64,000 nt of DNA from Sphagnum magellanicum (lineage: Eukaryota > Streptophyta > Sphagnopsida > Sphagnales > Sphagnaceae), in NCBI GenBank assembly GCA_021904315.1, contig CM038915.1, positions 11,656,001-11,720,000 of the forward strand, given 5' to 3'. Shown piece after piece: positions 33,906 to 47,300 of this stretch. Position 1 is the first letter of the stretch. The number at the start of each line of letters is the position of its first letter. Position numbers and translations under genes: made by a program. Below the pieces are notes generated by a model, which was not told where the DNA came from, did no database searches, and saw nothing but the letters and a program-made list of their open reading frames with translations.

Positions 33906-35222
33906 ACAAACTCATAGATAGATGGATGGGAATGGGGGAACCAATTAACATACCTATGTCATGCAATGTTTTTTTTTTCCCCATTTTAAAAATTGTAGCA
34001 CAAATTCAATACTAATTAATGACACTTTGTAAAAAAATGTACGCCAACCAATGAAAATGTAATATGTTAAATATCCCTTAATGAATTTTGTTTAGACATT
34101 AATGCAACACCTTGCATGATTCTACCATAGGGTGTGACTAATGTCTTGCCAATTTTTTTTAAAAATTAGTTAATTAATTAATTTCAATAGTAGACCCTCT
34201 TATTACAAATGCTTGAAAGTAGGTTATAAATGGGGTATTGGATACTCCTTCCTTGATGTCATGTGTTGAAGCTCAACAAGGAACAACAAAACATATAATT
34301 TTATTTTGTTTTTAACAAAACAAGTGTTGATTGTGAAGAACACAACCTACATAGTGTGCAAAGTCACGCATGACATCACACTAATGCCCAAATAGAACTT
34401 ATTAAAGGTATTAGGTATTATTTAAAGTGTGAAGACCGCCCAATAATATCCTAGGTTCGGAGACAAAAAAAATATTGAAATAAAAAATGAAAACACACTT
34501 GTGTAACTTTGTGGTGACAAATCATTATTAAAGACAATTATACAAATAGTAGTACAAATAAATTACCAAATTTTAATGAAGAGTTAAATTGGAGTTGGTA
34601 ATAAACTAGAACAATTGAACATTAACACTTTCAAGCTTGCAAAACAAATGTAACTTCAAAAGAATCAGGTAAAAAATTATGAACAACCAGCTCTATCAAA
34701 CATGCTCAAGTTGACTCAAATACAACCAAGTAGTGTGATGAAAGCCTAAGTCCAAAATAATGATTACATTGAGAATAACAAATTTTTTATAAATATTTTA
34801 ACTGGCAAAAACAAAATCTTATCTATGAATTAGAAATCCTAACTAATAGTTTTCATATTATCACTAAAATTTAGATACTGAAAATAAATAAAAGATTTCT
34901 GTGGTCACTTTTGATAATCAATTTTCAGTACTAAATTTGAGTAATAAAAAAATTGATAAAAATACTTGTATACAAAATAAAATAAAAATCCTAACAGTGT
35001 TTTCTTGACCCTTTAACACAGTGTCATTGAAAATGGATGACAAATTGCCTCAAGACTAAAAGCCATGTTGCAATAATTAAATGAAGTTTTTTCAAAATAG
35101 TTTGAAAAAATGGTGGATTTTCCCTTTTAATAATTGGAAATTTTGTAAGATAAATATTCTCTTGTTATTTTCTAGGGTAAGCAAGTCGTGAAAATTCGCC
35201 ACAAAAAATAAAATCACTATAA

Positions 35223-35569
35223 TAAAGTTATCCCGTAAAGTCACCCTCCTATCCCCTCTGCTTTCACCCCTTATCTCCTCCTTCAGAGATATCAGAAAAG
35301 TAAGGAAATTTTATTAAATCTCAATATGAAAGGCTGAAATTCAGCAATTAATGCACAAGGTTCGAGAGTAATTATAGTAGTTGTCCAGGTAGGAGCAGTG
35401 AAAATATATGTAGCAGCAGTGGCGGCGCTCAGGAAAAAAGGAAAGAGGGGATGAAACTCAATTTACCACCAAAATTGGTGAAGAGACTATATTGAGTCCC
35501 AGTTACTTTGTTTTGTAGAATTTCATTCCCAGTTACGCATTTGATGCCCCAAACTGGCCGTTCTCGCCC
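35223..35569 (+). mobile_element. Inverted-repeat element (MITE), copy 1, 3' truncated
   Basis: The 5' end reads TAAAGTTATCCCGTAAAGTC, the same terminal sequence as copy 2. The body (TGCACAAGGTTCGAGAGTAA, then GTGAAAATATATGTAGC, GGCGCTCAGGAAAAA, ATTTCATTCCCAGTTAC, AAACTGGCCGTT) matches the reverse complement of copy 2 closely. It stops at about 35569 in TCTCGCCC, roughly 30 bp before where copy 2 has its other terminus, and PPR-coding sequence begins at once. Confidence 0.85.
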
Positions 35570-37213
35570 ATAGTGTTTGTTCATAGTGGATTTAAGTCTT
35601 ATGTATTCGTGGTTAGTAGTCTCATTGACATGTATGCCAAATGTGGGAGCATAGAGGATGCATGGAAAGTGTTCAATGAGACCCCTGTACACAATGTGGT
35701 CTGTTGGAGTGCCATGATTGTGGGGTATGTGAGATGTGGGCAAGGGCAGAAGGCATTGGAACTGTCTCAACAGATGCACCAGGATGGAGTGGAGCCAGAT
35801 TCTATGACTTTTGTGGGGATTCTCAATGGCTGTGCCAGTGTAGCAGCACTTGAAGAGGGCAGGTGTGTTCACAAGCAGATTGTTCAGAATGGCTGCAAGC
35901 TTGATCTCTGTGTGGGTAATAGCATCATTGACATGTATGCCAAATGTGGGAGCATAGAGGATGCTCAGAGAGTGTTCAACAGGATGTCTACACATGATGT
36001 CATATCCTGGAATGCTATGATTTCAAGCTATGTCACATGTGGAAAAGGGCAGGAGGCATTAGAACTGTATCAAGAAATGCAACAAAAGGGAGTGGAGCCA
36101 GACCATGTCACCTTCTTGGCAGTTCTCAATGCCTGTGCCAGTATAGCTGCACTTGAAGAAGGCAGACATATTCATGGTCAGATTGTGCAAAGCAATTGTG
36201 AGTCTGATCTCTTTGTAGGTAGTAGCCCTCGTTGACATGTATGCCGAATGTGGGAGTATAGAGGATGCAAGGATAGTGTTCAACAAGATGACCGCACACA
36301 ATACTATGCTTGCAGGGTATGCCATACATGGCCATGCAAAGGAAACTCTTGAGCATTTTGGACAGAAGTGTCAAGAAGCTGTAGGGCTGGACATGGTCAC
36401 TTTTGTTTCACTTCTGTCAGCTTACAGCCATGTTGGCCTAGTTGATGGAGGACTTCACTACTTTGAATCCATGGGTTTAGTTTGTGGTACATCTGCAACT
36501 GTGGAGCACTACGCCTGCATGGTTGATCTTCTTGGCTGTGCTGGCTATCTGCAAAAGGCAGAGGATTTGATTGAGACATGTCTTGTAAGCCAAACTCTTC
36601 TGTGTGGATGGCCTTGCTCAGTGCTTGCAGAGTTCATGGTAACACAGAGATGGGAGAAGGTATTTGCAAAACAGGTTCTTGAATCGGAAGCTAGAAATTC
36701 TTCGGGCTATGTCCTGCTGTCAAGCATTTATGCTGCTGCTAGCAAGCAGCATAGTAGTGCAAAAATCAAACAACTGAGGCTGGAAAGACATGTTAAGAAA
36801 CAGCCCGGGCGCACCTGGATTGAAGTGAATAAACAAGTGTATTCATTTACAGTAGGTGACCAAGAACATCCTCAGATAAATGGTATTCATGCGGAACTAG
36901 AATGATTGTTCTATCTAATGGAGGAGTCAAGATATGTACCAGATACTGAATTTGTATTACATGATGTAGAGGACGAAGAAAAGGTTGCTCATTTGTGTCA
37001 CCACAGTGAGACTCATTAGCCATTGCATTTGGACTCATTAGCACGCCTCCCAGTACTCCACTCTGGATTTTCAAGAATCTGTGGGTATGTGGTGATTGCC
37101 ACACTCCCACCAAGTTCATTGGAAAGTTAGTTGGGAGAACAATCGTTACAAGGGATGCCACTCACATTCATTACTTTGAAAATGGTCTTTGTTCATGCAG
37201 GGGTTATTGGTGA
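35570..37213 (+). pseudogene. DYW-class PPR protein pseudogene, 5' truncated
   Basis: The intact family are RNA-binding pentatricopeptide proteins of mitochondria or plastids whose DYW domain performs C-to-U RNA editing. Here PLS-type repeats (S/IDMYAKCGSIEDA, SWNAMI, VTFVGILNGCASVAALEEGR) fill 35573-36235. One extra C near 36230 shifts the frame, and repeats resume at 36237 (DMYAECGSIEDA). E and E+ parts follow (VEHYACMVDLLG, KKQPGRTWIEVN, HPQI..IHAEL), then a stop at about 36903. DYW remnants (HHSE, CGDCH, RDATHIHYFENGLCSC) sit in shifting frames and end in GYW plus a stop at 37213. The repeat following 36290 has lost several residues. No initiator or organelle-targeting part remains, because homology starts exactly at the MITE edge. 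The intronless state is normal for the family. The repeat wording recalls fern PPR families. Confidence 0.85.
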
Positions 37214-40486: not shown

Positions 40487-40942
40487 ATAACCGTGGTTCT
40501 CGTTTTGAACAAAGACTAGAAAAAAAACTGCCCAAAAAACCACTAGTTCTTTGTTGGTTCTTTCGTGAAACCCACCGGTTCCTTTGAGTCCTTTGAAATA
40601 ACTGGGACCGCCAGTTCTTGGATTTCGAAGGTTTCAAATACCCAGAACCGATGGTTCTTTGATTCCCAAGGTGTCAAATACCTGGAACCGATGGTTCTTG
40701 AATTCCCAAGGTTTCAAATACTCCAAGCTGATGGTTCTTTGATTCCCGAGGTTTCAAATACCCGAGGGTGATGGTTGTTTGATTCCCAAGGTTTCAAATA
40801 CCCGGGGATGATGGTTGTTTGATTCCTGAGGTTTTAAATACCCGGGGATGATGGTTGTTTGATTCCCAAGGTTTCAAATACCCAGAATTGATGGTTTTTT
40901 TATTTGGTTTTTTTTTCAAAAACCTGAAACCAGCACGGTTAT
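40487..40942 (+). repeat. GGTTC element with eight 40-bp repeats, copy 1
   Basis: From 40571 to 40890 eight units follow in strict 40-bp register; the consensus core is GATGGTTCTTTGATTCCCAA then GGTTTCAAATACCC.GAACC. Each better-kept unit junction forms a hairpin AGAACC-GAT-GGTTCT. Short inverted arms ATAACCGTG (40487-40495) and CACGGTTAT (40934-40942) bracket the array. A related array with shared flanking phrases (CTTTCGTGAAA, CCGTGGTTCTC) is at 58154-58705. Confidence 0.8.
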
Positions 40943-41589
40943 TACAAATCAAATACCCTCCTAACACAAGAAATTTCCAGGAGAGATAAAATGGACTTGA
41001 TTGATTAAAGTTATCCGTAAAGTCAGGCGATTAGGGGGCGACAACGGCCAGTTTCGGCATAATAAGGCATCAAATGTGTAACTGGGAATGAAATTTTGCA
41101 AAACAAAATAACTGGGACCCAAACTAGTTTTTCCACCAATTTTGGTGGTAAATTGAATTTCATCCCCTCTTTCCTTTTTCCTGAGCGCCTCCACTGCCGC
41201 TACATATATTTTCACTGATCCTACCTGTACAATTACTACAATTACTCTCGAACCTTGTGCATTAAATGCTGAGTTTCAGCATTTCATACTGAGATTTAGG
41301 GCCACTTTAGACGAGGGTCCAAGGTCCAAAATTCCAGGGATCAATTTGAAGCAAATTGGAACAAATTGGACCCTTCTTCACATTAATTTTTTTTTAAAGG
41401 TACAACGAGTGTGTAAAGGCATAGGGTCCAATTTGAAGGTCCAATTTGTATTAAAAAAAGTGAGATTCATATGTGAGGGGTTTAGATTATTCTTTGTTTT
41501 TTTCTCTTTCTCTTTTTTTTTTTCATGTTTTTTCTCTTTTTGTTTCTTGCTTTCTCTATAAAAAAATTGTTTTCTACTACAATAACACA

Positions 41590-43014
41590 ATGGATGAGCA
41601 TAGGCACAAGATATTGGTGGTCCTAGTTTTTACTATGGCCATTGCACAAGTGGTCTTGTTACAATTAGTAACTATTACACAACATTGGAGTATGATGAAT
41701 GCGTTGTTTTGTTCAAAGTCTCTGAACATGCCACCAAAAGTTCGGAGCATATGGAGATATGCGAAGGTAATTGGATATATATGGAGAGCTTTTCAAAGAA
41801 GATGTTATGACAATGCACAAGGTTAAGCTTTGACACATTTCGTGTTTTGATTAATGTTGTAGGTCCAAGTTTCGAACGAAAAATACAAACATGAGAAAAA
41901 GCATTCCTATGGAAGTTATGATAACAATGGCTCTTGCAAGATTAGGTAGTGAAAACTCATTACAAATGTGTGGAGAGGTTTATGGCATTGCAAAAAGTAC
42001 GGCATCAATTACAATGAGAAATTTTTCTATAGCAATTAAAAAGCACTTGAAACTATTGGTGATACCTAAATTGACTAGAAACAAAATCAAAGAAATTACC
42101 ATTGGTTTTGAATGTTTACATGAAATTCCTTACATCCTAGGTGCCATAGATGGTAATCATGTTCCAATTATTGCACCTAAGGGAGATCCCAAATCATATT
42201 ATTATCAAAAAGGTTTATATTCCACATTGATTCAAGGAGTTGTAAATGCAAAATGTAATTTATAGGATTATGACTATGGGTGGGCAAGTAGTATTCATGA
42301 TTGGGCTCTTTCCCAAAATACAAAGTTAGGAAGTTGAGTGATGAAAGACAAGATTTTACCTTACAAGTTCATAGGAGATGTTGTTTATCCAATGCCAACC
42401 ATAGTTCTACTTTCTATTCAAAAGTGAGAAAAATGGGTTATCAAAAAACACAAAAAATATTGGAATTTTATCCAATCAAATACAAGGATGTTAGTTAACA
42501 AAGCTTTTGGAATGTTGAAAGGAAGGTTAGAATTTTACTCAAGAGAATACACATTCCATTGCACCACATGCTAGACTTGGTGACGGCTTGCGTATGTTTG
42601 CATAACATGTGCATTGTCAATTTGAATGACTTTAATATGGACTTGGCTTTGTAGGCTCAAAAATAAACACAAGTAGAAGCAAATTCAACTTTTGGCAACA
42701 TCAAAGGAGTTGATTTGTTCAAAGTGGTTGAAAAAGCAATCAAACAAATGAAGAGGCTACAAAATCCAAGGATAATGGATGGTAATAGGATTGACATGGA
42801 AGACATAGAACATCAAGATGAAGATGAAGATGTGACAACCATTGAAAACAATCCTAGTAAGAAAGCAAAAGAAGAAAGGATCATGAAGATGTTGACAGAG
42901 GTTATGGCAACTCATGAATTTTTAGCAAAAAACTTCTTTGAAATTTATTTGAAAAAAAATGACAATCTTGCCTTCTTAGATACATCAGATTCTAGGTTAG
43001 ATTATGGTGAATGA
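41590..43014 (+). pseudogene. Harbinger transposase (HARBI1-like), broken
   Basis: The intact enzyme is a DDE nuclease that cuts and pastes the element. Recognisable parts are an N-terminal segment from 41590, a helical region at 41891-42060 (MEVMITMALARLGSENSLQM, GIAKSTAS), and the first catalytic Asp in LGAIDGNHVPI at about 42140. Then follow a degraded second-Asp region (SSIHDW, about 42290), the part where the catalytic Glu is expected (AFGMLK, about 42505) and the C-terminal RIHIPLHHM...VCLHNMC block (42540-42615). An acidic tail is at 42715-43014. Frame changes and stops separate these parts, including a stop after about 78 codons and another near 42263, so no full-length enzyme is encoded. 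Confidence 0.85.
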
Positions 43015-43022
43015 CTCAAAGT

Positions 43023-44377
43023 TCATATGGTATGAAACTTATAAACTATGAGATGTCCAATTTGGACATCCATATTTTTTAATAAAACATTGGTTTCTAC
43101 AAATTGTTGTAACATTGTTGTGTTATTTTCAGCCATGGTTGAAAAGTGTTCAAGGACATTGATCTTATGCCTCTTGTTTTGTTTTGTAACTTCATCTAGA
43201 GTGATTAGTCTATCTAAGGGTTTTTTATTAGCATCATCCTTAGAACCACTATCAAGATTTGTTTGAAATTATGGATTGCCCACAATTTCATCAATTTCAT
43301 TTGCACAAGCATTATATGCTTCATCACATTTCCATTTTGGTGCCACCAACTATCCAATGCATCATAGAAAGGACATTCATAACGATCGTTACCTGAAATC
43401 CCATTTGTAATTTTGTCATCTTTGTATTGCTTGTAAATTGCATTGAACTTCCACTTATAAACAATTGGAATCTTTGAAAAACTAAGGAATGTACCAACAT
43501 TCGGGTGTACAATTTGACCCATGTATCCACCCCTGAAAGAGAAAAAAATTGAGATAAAAAACCTTGATTTATGGGCTGAAAGTAATCCTTGAAACAAAAA
43601 AATCAAAATTGATTACATGAATAAAGCAATTGTAAAGCACTTCAAAAGACTTAAAATAAAATTGGCTTTGTGGTTAGTTCCTCTCCTTCCCTCCAAAGAG
43701 ATGTGGGTTTAAATCTCATTGTGGCCAAAGTGGTGACCTCTGATGGGGGAAAACGGGGACAAAGGTAAGAGGCCCCAAAGGCTAAAACCTTAAAAAAACC
43801 CAATTGGCCCAATTTGAATATGATTTTTTTGTTATTTTTTTGCATGTTTTGCTTTCAAAAATTCTATCATTACATCCAAGTTTCAATTATGAAAATAAAG
43901 CAAAAATAAAATTTTTAAAAATAATTATAAGGTTTCAATAAGTTGGAATTTACCTTGTTTCTTTGCATTTTTGGTAAATTCAAGCTCCATTTCTTTGCGT
44001 AATGCAATTAGATGTAGAACTTCACCATCTACCCAATTTTTTCTAACCTTCTCAGCCTTTTCACCTTCTTCATCTTCCTCTTTCATTATAATTATAATTT
44101 TTTTCTTCTTTGTTATTCTCTTTTTGGGAAGGGGAGTCAGTTTACGGATTTCTTGTAAATCCAAATCTCCTTCCACTTGTGAAAATGAGTGTTTCAACAA
44201 CCTTCCATGACCAAAACTTTTTATCCTCATTTTTGAAACACTTTTATTTTGAGCATTTCAAGCAACAACTTTGTGTGGATCTATAAAACCAATCATGCCA
44301 ACACTAAATGTGTTAAAAAATGGAATGGTGAGTGTGCACTCAACAATGTCTTCTTCCATCCATGAAATGTCTTCCAT
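43023..44377 (-). pseudogene. Harbinger Myb/SANT-like partner gene, broken
   Basis: In this superfamily a Myb-like protein helps the transposase reach the nucleus and bind element ends. On the minus strand a start at 44377 (MEDISWMEED) leads to a basic and acidic region and then to the Myb-like part: NWVDGEVLHLIALRKEMELE, KNAKKQG, then KWKFNAIYKQYKDDK and ECPFYDALDSWWHQNG. The C-terminal part DEVTKQNKRHK...VLEHFSTMAENNTT runs to a stop at 43023. An intron with donor GTAAAT follows KKQG (about 43952) and an acceptor lies near 43536. Frame breaks, and a SINE-like insertion at 43655-43800 within the intron region, show that the gene is not intact. Confidence 0.75.
43655..43800 (+). mobile_element. 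tRNA-derived SINE-like insertion in the Harbinger element
   Basis: TGGCTTTGTGG (43663-43673) matches the polymerase III box A at ten of eleven positions. GGTTTAAATCT (43706-43716) matches box B at nine of eleven. The sequence continues into GGGGAAAACGGGGAC and an A-rich end near 43790-43800. That is longer than a tRNA and looks like the body of a SINE. It lies where the intron of the Myb-like gene is predicted. Confidence 0.5.
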
Positions 44378-47300
44378 TCTTGCACAATTGCAACTTCAAG
44401 AACAAGTGAATTATTTTTTAAACAAAGAATTATTTTTTAAAAAATAATGAAAAACAATGGAAGAAACAACATTGGACTTTAGCTTACATCTTGGTTCTCC
44501 GAACCATGAGCTTTCCTTTGAGCTCCATTATTTGGTTTGGACCAATTGAATTTCCTTCCAAAATGGTGCCATGTAAATGCCACTTCAGTTTGGTCTTAGA
44601 TCCTAATCTAAAGGCCTTGGGTCCAATTTATGGCAAGTTCAACCAATAGGAATGCTCCATTTTCATTGGACCTTCGACCTTTGTCCAAAGTGGCCCTTAA
44701 TAAAAATTTATTTACTTTGTGGAAAACATTGAAAGAGGGGATAAGGGGTGAAAGAGAAAGTGATTTTATAGATAACTTTATTTTTTTTGTGCATATAAAG
44801 TAAATTGGCCCACCATTGATCACTTGCCTATGACTAAACACTTTGGTAGATCTTTTTCAATTCTTCTCCATTTTGAATGATTTAAAATGTTATAGGAACA
44901 CCTATTCAAGCTTTCCAAATCATGTTTGAAATGCAAAGCCAAGGGACCGGCCAAAAAAGAGTTGTAAAGAAAATATGTTTTTGCAAATTGCAAAACATGT
45001 TTTTTTTTCATTTTTATTCATTTTGACCCCTCCTACTTTCAAACCTCATAACTTTATTAATTCTTATTCATTTAAAACAATTTAAAATGTTATAAGAATG
45101 CCACCTAAAGTTCTACAAATCATCTTTAAACCTTAATAACAATAGAGCAACATACAAGGCATTTTTTGGGTGTTCAGGAATTGGCCTTTATAAGATTCGG
45201 TGGTTTTTTTTTTGAATTATTGAGCGTAACTATGGGGGGTCATAACTTTTCTCAATTCTATTTTGTTTTTTAGGATGTTTAATGCCTGAGATGCACCAAT
45301 AAGAGGGGTTCAAGTTTTTTTTTGGACACCAAAAACAATGGAACCCTCCCCTTGGATCCAACCTACCTTAAATGCTTAAATGTTTGATCACCGACACATG
45401 CCAAACACCACATTGGAAGTTTGTGAGTTTGTGTTATACATTAGAAATACATAGAGGTTTATACATACACACTAGAGATCTATTTTTTGTCATTAAGAAA
45501 TAAAGCCCTAAAAACACCATTAAAGTGTAGCACCTAAACCCATGGTGTGATGGGGGGCAACAATAACCATATATATTTATTTATACACTTGTGGGCTTTC
45601 TAGTAGTAGCATGTAGTGCCAAACATAAGATGAAACTTTCAATTGTTATTCATAACATTTTTGGGTCAACTTTTTAAACCACAATCACTCCTTCTTTCTT
45701 TCTCTTTCTCTCTTTAGAATGAGTCCTCTTATTTAAACTAGAGACATTGCAACAACCCAATATAAGGACAATCATCAAAGATTCCAAAACAAATTGCTAA
45801 AGTTTTTAAAAATTAAATCTTTGATGAAACATATTTGGGAACATAATTGGGAGACTACTTATAAAGATGATGAAATGCAATTTTTTTTACAGCATGCATT
45901 TTACATGCCTCCTTTTTCTACATAGGCCAAAAAAACATTACATGTCATGAGAAGCATGAAGTTCCTAGTCTAACTATAATTAATTGCAAACTTCAAATCA
46001 TGGTATTTTTAAATTGCACTTAAAACATGAAAAATGAAGTTTTAAATTAACATAGTTTTTCAAGGGATATTCAATGAGAAAGGGATAGTTGGGTGTCAGT
46101 TGGTGAAGCAAATTGTGGCAACCTCAAACATGGACATCCAACCAATTTGTGTATGGATAATATTGATATATCAACATTGTTATAAAAATATTTCTTTACT
46201 TTACTTGTTGGTATACACATGTTGTCAAAATCAATTATGATTGTCAATTCGTCGATCTATTTAAACAATATCATAGCTAGATGTTTGTTGTTCCTCCAAT
46301 TATCGAATATCACTCATGAATAAATCTTGGTCTTGACATCTTGTTTAATAAGAATGGAAACTTGTGAACACAAATTTCATAGGTACCAAGTTTTTTTGTA
46401 CAAGACAATCAAATTAGCAAGTATTTATAAGTTGTTAGGACAACAAGGGTTCTAAGATTATGAATGACCTCTAACCCATAATGATCAACAAACAAATATG
46501 AATTAAAACACCATCTTTATACTTGGTGGACAAACTTTGTGTATAACGCTCAATGTAAACCTGCCAACCTTTTTACATACCTTCAACATTGGACAGATGT
46601 TCCTAACTTAATTTCAAAACATAATCCATATTTCCCAACATATGTATAGTTACAATAAGATTTATCCATTAAATTATTCATTCATTCACATACAATTATT
46701 AATTATTTTTATTTAAAAAATCTTAGGGATTAAAGCAAATGGCACCAACCATTCATAATGCATCTCCTTACAAAAATAACTTTGCATCTTAGTTCACAAA
46801 ATTATCATATCTAAATGGACATGCTTCTTCTAAACCTAAATTTTATCCCCCATTTTAAAAACACCTGTTAAAAATAATATGTCATTGGTTGCCTTTGATC
46901 CACTTTAATATTTTACCATCTTAATGAATTCAATAATGTTGTTCAATTATTTCCAACCACTTAGTAGCTTAACTTTTGAAAATGTACAATTTTAATCATC
47001 ATATTAAGGGTAATGATGTTCTTCAATTCTTTCCCAGGGATTTGAATGCTCCCCAAGTTCCCATCTTACTTTATGAAGTTCCATTATTAACAATTTGGTT
47101 AAAGTGGTCAACATTTAGCATTGTTTAATGGATTGAACATGCATGATGCAATTACAAAATAAGGCATTTTTAAAACCAAATATTGAGGTGAACATGCAGT
47201 ATCTATAAATACCACCAAAATTTATAACATATATGAATGCTAGGGTGATTTATGGCGAGATATATACAGGATCAAGTACATGTATTTCCAATGAAGGTGA

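Follow-up and report, generated by a model that had tools for sequence, protein, structure and literature searches.

A degenerate PIF/Harbinger element nested in a MITE copy, with its unoccupied target site preserved in the same window of Sphagnum magellanicum

Within a 64,000-nucleotide stretch of Sphagnum magellanicum DNA (GenBank assembly GCA_021904315.1, contig CM038915.1, positions 11,656,001 to 11,720,000 of the forward strand; here called the window, with positions counted from its first base), we observe two copies of the same MITE, one of which is interrupted by a degenerate 3.4-kb transposon. The interrupted copy (copy 2, plus strand) consists of a left part at 41007-41298, which starts AAAGTTATCCGTAAAGTCA and ends in the TTA that the transposon targeted, and a right part at 44700-44779, with the MITE's own ATT target duplication standing outside both parts at 41004-41006 and 44780-44782 (plus strand). 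The other copy (copy 1, minus strand) is uninterrupted, occupies 35224-35569 and is truncated on the left by about 29 bp. Both copies had been recognized in an earlier, sequence-only reading of this DNA, and both are real; the limits given here refine those drawn for copy 2, and copy 1 is not of full length.

Reading across the interruption in copy 2, GAGAT (41291-41295) is followed by TTA (41296-41298), the 3,398-bp element (41299-44696, plus strand), a second TTA (44697-44699) and ATAAAA, i.e., the junctions read GAGAT-TTA-GGGCCACTTT ... AAAGTGGCCC-TTA-ATAAAA. The junctions and the element size first noted, with TTA on both sides, were correct to the base, and sequence and paired-copy comparison identify the two TTAs (plus strand) as the left and right target duplications of the element. 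The insert also has the inverted ends that mark PIF/Harbinger elements, whose terminal inverted repeats are given as 14-25 bp (PMC2213677): its left end (41299-41329, plus strand) and right end (44666-44696, minus strand) match at 27 of 31 bases, with the outermost 10 free of mismatches.

The target site itself is preserved, unoccupied, in copy 1, where 35309-35322 reads TTTTATTAAATCTC, the reverse complement of GAGATTTAATAAAA, the latter being the site on the minus strand; the empty site claimed from the letters alone is therefore present. When the two flanks of copy 2 were joined by script, they aligned to copy 1 through the junction point (blastn, left flank 87.5% over 264 bp, right flank 79% over 52 bp); a pairwise alignment was the check that the earlier reading had suggested. 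The same junctions bear on whether an assembly artefact, or a composite repeat, has joined MITE and Harbinger sequence, a reading in favour of which we found nothing and that we find scarcely credible given an exact TTA duplication with family ends at both junctions and the MITE's own ATT duplication standing outside.

Two recognizable genes had been claimed for the element, and both can indeed be recognized, with the qualifications that the transposase is broken and that its fragments in the window gave no family match by themselves. The transposase gene remnant (41590-43014, plus strand) is interrupted by a stop at 42263-42265, inside the conserved domain, and by frame changes; at the position of the motif E-R-[TAVP]-F, present in 9 of 12 sister copies, it has N-K-A-F. 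The E of this motif we take to be the third catalytic residue, following the usual arrangement in the family, and the window transposase is without this third acidic residue. A Pfam search of six ORFs from the window gave no transposase match and one Myb match below the cut-off; among sister copies, DDE_Tnp_4 scored above the curated cut-off in three of four fragments from three copies and in the one further fragment searched. A single open frame holding both the first aspartate and the glutamate motifs was present in 0 of 12 sister copies, a count made with introns unmodelled and under which an intact copy is possible. With a stop in the domain, frame changes and N for E, the coding capacity expected of an autonomous element is not intact, and the window copy can no longer make its own transposase.

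The second gene remnant (43214-44230, minus strand) is convergent with the transposase gene and carries a Myb/SANT domain split between two pieces that resemble exons (open frames 44230-43925 and 43606-43214). The first window piece alone matched Myb_DNA-bind_4 at 21.7 bits, below the cut-off, and the trimmed window pieces, once joined by hand, matched it at 30.6 bits (E 4.6e-7, cut-off 27); single pieces, including those from sister copies, all fell below the cut-off, with one of three sister pieces giving no match. Judged by its inverted ends, its TWA duplication (here TTA) and both types of gene (DDE_Tnp_4 in sister copies, Myb/SANT in the joined pieces), the insert is classed here as a PIF/Harbinger element, and the identity that had been proposed for it is borne out.

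We searched the genome with MITE copy 1, which gave 3,327 first-look candidates, and scored the best 40; this scored set favors unbroken copies (copy 2 is absent from it), and the frequency of insertions is not readable from it. All 39 scored copies other than copy 1 are single matches of 295-366 bp that span the insertion point at query position ~254. Reading 30 of these 39 directly, together with L062, which came from a Harbinger flank, we found the site GAGATTTAATAAAA within 3 edits, and unoccupied, in 31 of 31 copies, among which L085, L086 and L091 are duplicates of one another, as are L081 and L094. Partial MITE copies in L047 and L068 are likewise continuous through the insertion point. 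Because about 40 other MITE copies are without it, the 3.4-kb segment is an insertion, as had been proposed; that it is instead a normal component of the MITE, in which case the other genomic copies would carry it, is ruled out by the 39 of 39 scored copies that are uninterrupted and the 31 of 31 read copies that are empty.

An empty site may also be left by departure. In this superfamily, excision is as a rule precise (109 of 110 events in yeast; PMC2836001), so that one empty site taken alone could have been left by excision. The empty copies might then have lost, by precise excision, a Harbinger that predates the spread of the MITE, with which the total divergence of the Harbinger, greater than that of its host MITE, would agree. 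This would call for separate precise events at each of the ~40 other empty loci, against one insertion, and we consider it very improbable; the excision reading is unnecessary, because many MITE copies at other loci are empty.

By its form, the host element is a MITE, i.e., it is short (369-396 bp between ends), has inverted ends that read AAAGTTATCCGTAAAGTCA and extend over ~19 bp (16 of 19 end bases match in copy 2), occurs in many copies and makes a short duplication. This 3-bp duplication is AWT in 21 of the 29 MITE copies with both ends (duplicate copies counted), copy 2 among them. AWT stands on both sides in 22 copies, and the middle base agrees in 21 of these; when duplication partners are exchanged between MITE copies, full three-base agreement is reached in 35%. 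The wider context of the duplication is palindromic, Y-AWT-R. The AWT duplication is the only pointer of the host MITE to the PIF/Harbinger class: duplications of PIF/Harbinger MITEs are tabulated as TWA, AT or AWT in PMC9033116, and our MITE is likened by its duplication to those elements, which come from moths and not from a plant.

Several observations concern the surroundings of MITE copies. Directly at the truncated left edge of copy 1 begins a reading frame (35570-36905) that contains PPR repeats together with an E motif (PPR_2 145 bits, E_motif 42.9 bits), shifts frame near 36220 and looks like a truncated pseudogene; on the other side of copy 1, 34200-35225 has no plus-strand open frame of at least 45 aa. 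Upstream of copy 2, positions 40596-40904 form an imperfect tandem repeat whose period is 80 bp. The near-identical MITE copies in L085, L086 and L091 share the same flanks and lie within ~70 kb on contig C2, and mark a local segmental duplication in which the MITE is included.

Searches with the two ends of the Harbinger element, which the sequence-only reading had suggested as a means of counting full copies and related short elements, gave 356 left and 826 right first-look candidates, with 40 scored for either end; regions were fetched for ten places with both ends and for 20 around right ends. They yielded 17 distinct paired copies including that of the window, both full-length and short: 8 of the 17 measure 3.28-3.48 kb, and the remainder are 329, 332, 595, 1,235, 1,475 or 1,481 bp long or fall between 2.7 and 4.9 kb. 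Matching 3-bp duplications flank 14 of the 17 (7 TAA, 6 TTA and 1 TGA, i.e., 13 of 14 are TWA), two of which share one flank, leaving 13 that are independent; at the other three copies (L033, L040 and L051) no matching duplication was found. C stands at -1 of the duplication in 10 of 14 cases, versus a background of 15%, and G at +1 in 7 of 14, versus 16%. The family thus shows an extended target preference around TWA, and a 9-bp extended preference is stated for plant PIF elements (PMC2836001); the window site, where T precedes and A follows the TTA, lies outside the family's common C-TWA-G context. A tree of 14 Harbinger copies is near-star, with own branches of 0.08-0.13 (0.26 for L058), internal branches of at most 0.016 and pairwise identities, gaps excluded, of 83-86% (76-79% for L058), a shape suggestive of a single burst of the family with decay thereafter. 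A 1.48-kb deletion derivative recurs with the same flanks, twice on C4 and once on C18 (L010, L011 and L013, equal to L045, L044 and L049), and a larger unit was probably duplicated together with it.

Some of these copies lie near the MITE, as would be expected if the MITE repeatedly served this Harbinger family as a landing pad, with nesting beyond chance. For example, a full-length copy in L047, whose duplication is TGA, stops 8 bp, counting that duplication, short of a truncated MITE (295-524), although its other flank is not MITE, and L062 and L068 also hold MITE copies. These three MITE copies compare with 1.07 expected in the 141,780 bases of L039-L068 (chance ~0.09), an expectation derived from the 3,327 first-look candidates in 439 Mb and rough, since most candidates are unscored. 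MITE copies near Harbinger copies are accordingly not clearly above expectation and give no clear sign of an insertion hotspot; with the window site itself outside the preferred context, we hold the landing-pad reading to be improbable. It is also unlikely that host and guest are both Harbinger-type, belonging to two lineages with different target rules (the MITE using AWT within an A/T palindrome and the 3.4-kb family using C-TWA-G), with the MITE as a recurrent landing place.

The order proposed at the outset, MITE first and Harbinger second, is supported as the only simple reading of the nesting, and it rests on that nesting and not on decay. In total substitutions, the own branch of the window Harbinger is 0.073 (0.067-0.084), versus 0.042 (0.024-0.065) for the host MITE, and a smaller set of copies had given values of 0.076 and 0.049; by this measure the Harbinger would, if anything, look older than its host, against the nesting order at equal rates. 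Transversion branches are 0.019 and 0.013, with overlapping intervals, and changes relative to the family majority (220 of 3145 sites in the Harbinger, 19 of 367 in the MITE) do not differ significantly, either for C>T (p 0.16) or for other changes (p 0.42). Four rows that were duplicates or an outlier (L086, L091, L094 and L058) were dropped before the branch and majority counts, and the branch estimate also left out MITE rows with at least 15% gaps. Divergence as a contradiction of the order is not upheld, the gap not being significant once C>T and other changes are split. Should the excess be genuine, it would be explained most simply by a Harbinger that had already diverged when it last jumped, because cut-and-paste movement does not reset the clock.

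Taken as a whole, the locus almost certainly records a cut-and-paste PIF/Harbinger insertion in which the element entered a MITE copy that was already in place, one of a high-copy family, at its TTA and duplicated these three bases. By analogy with the superfamily, a DDE transposase aided by a Myb/SANT partner protein would have carried out the cleavage, and a 3-bp staggered cut at TTA would have given rise to the target duplication; end binding is the role proposed for the Myb-like ORF1 protein and cutting that of the DDE transposase, both being needed (PMC2836001). The proteins would have been the element's own or, if the window copy was already damaged when it jumped, those of a sister copy.

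It is established practice to document transposition through the unoccupied sites of paralogous repeats, and a Harbinger insertion with an empty paralogous site is a further, ordinary example of a documented phenomenon. Similar PIF/Harbinger families are described in other plants. The MtPH elements of Medicago truncatula, as described in PMC2213677, encode a TPase, in many cases alongside a second ORF; they have inverted ends, make TTA/TAA duplications and include many non-autonomous copies, and paralogous empty sites were used there also, with 11 RESites reported. They differ from our family in their ends, which read GGGCCACTTTAGAC here where ten MtPH ends have GTTT (PMC2213677), and in probably belonging to another plant lineage, and the proteins are likened by description only. 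Grapevine Pifvine elements, likened in the same manner, combine a PIF transposase with a second ORF and have mostly TAA/TTA duplications; unlike the 12 sister copies here, none of which has a single transposase-spanning frame, 24 grapevine elements have intact ORFs (PMC2528002). Among the papers searched, none joins Sphagnum, Harbinger and transposition, and the Harbinger family described here may be undescribed in the open literature. The nested insertion leaves general understanding unchanged; what it provides is a Harbinger family whose ends, duplication and insertion order are fixed from one window.
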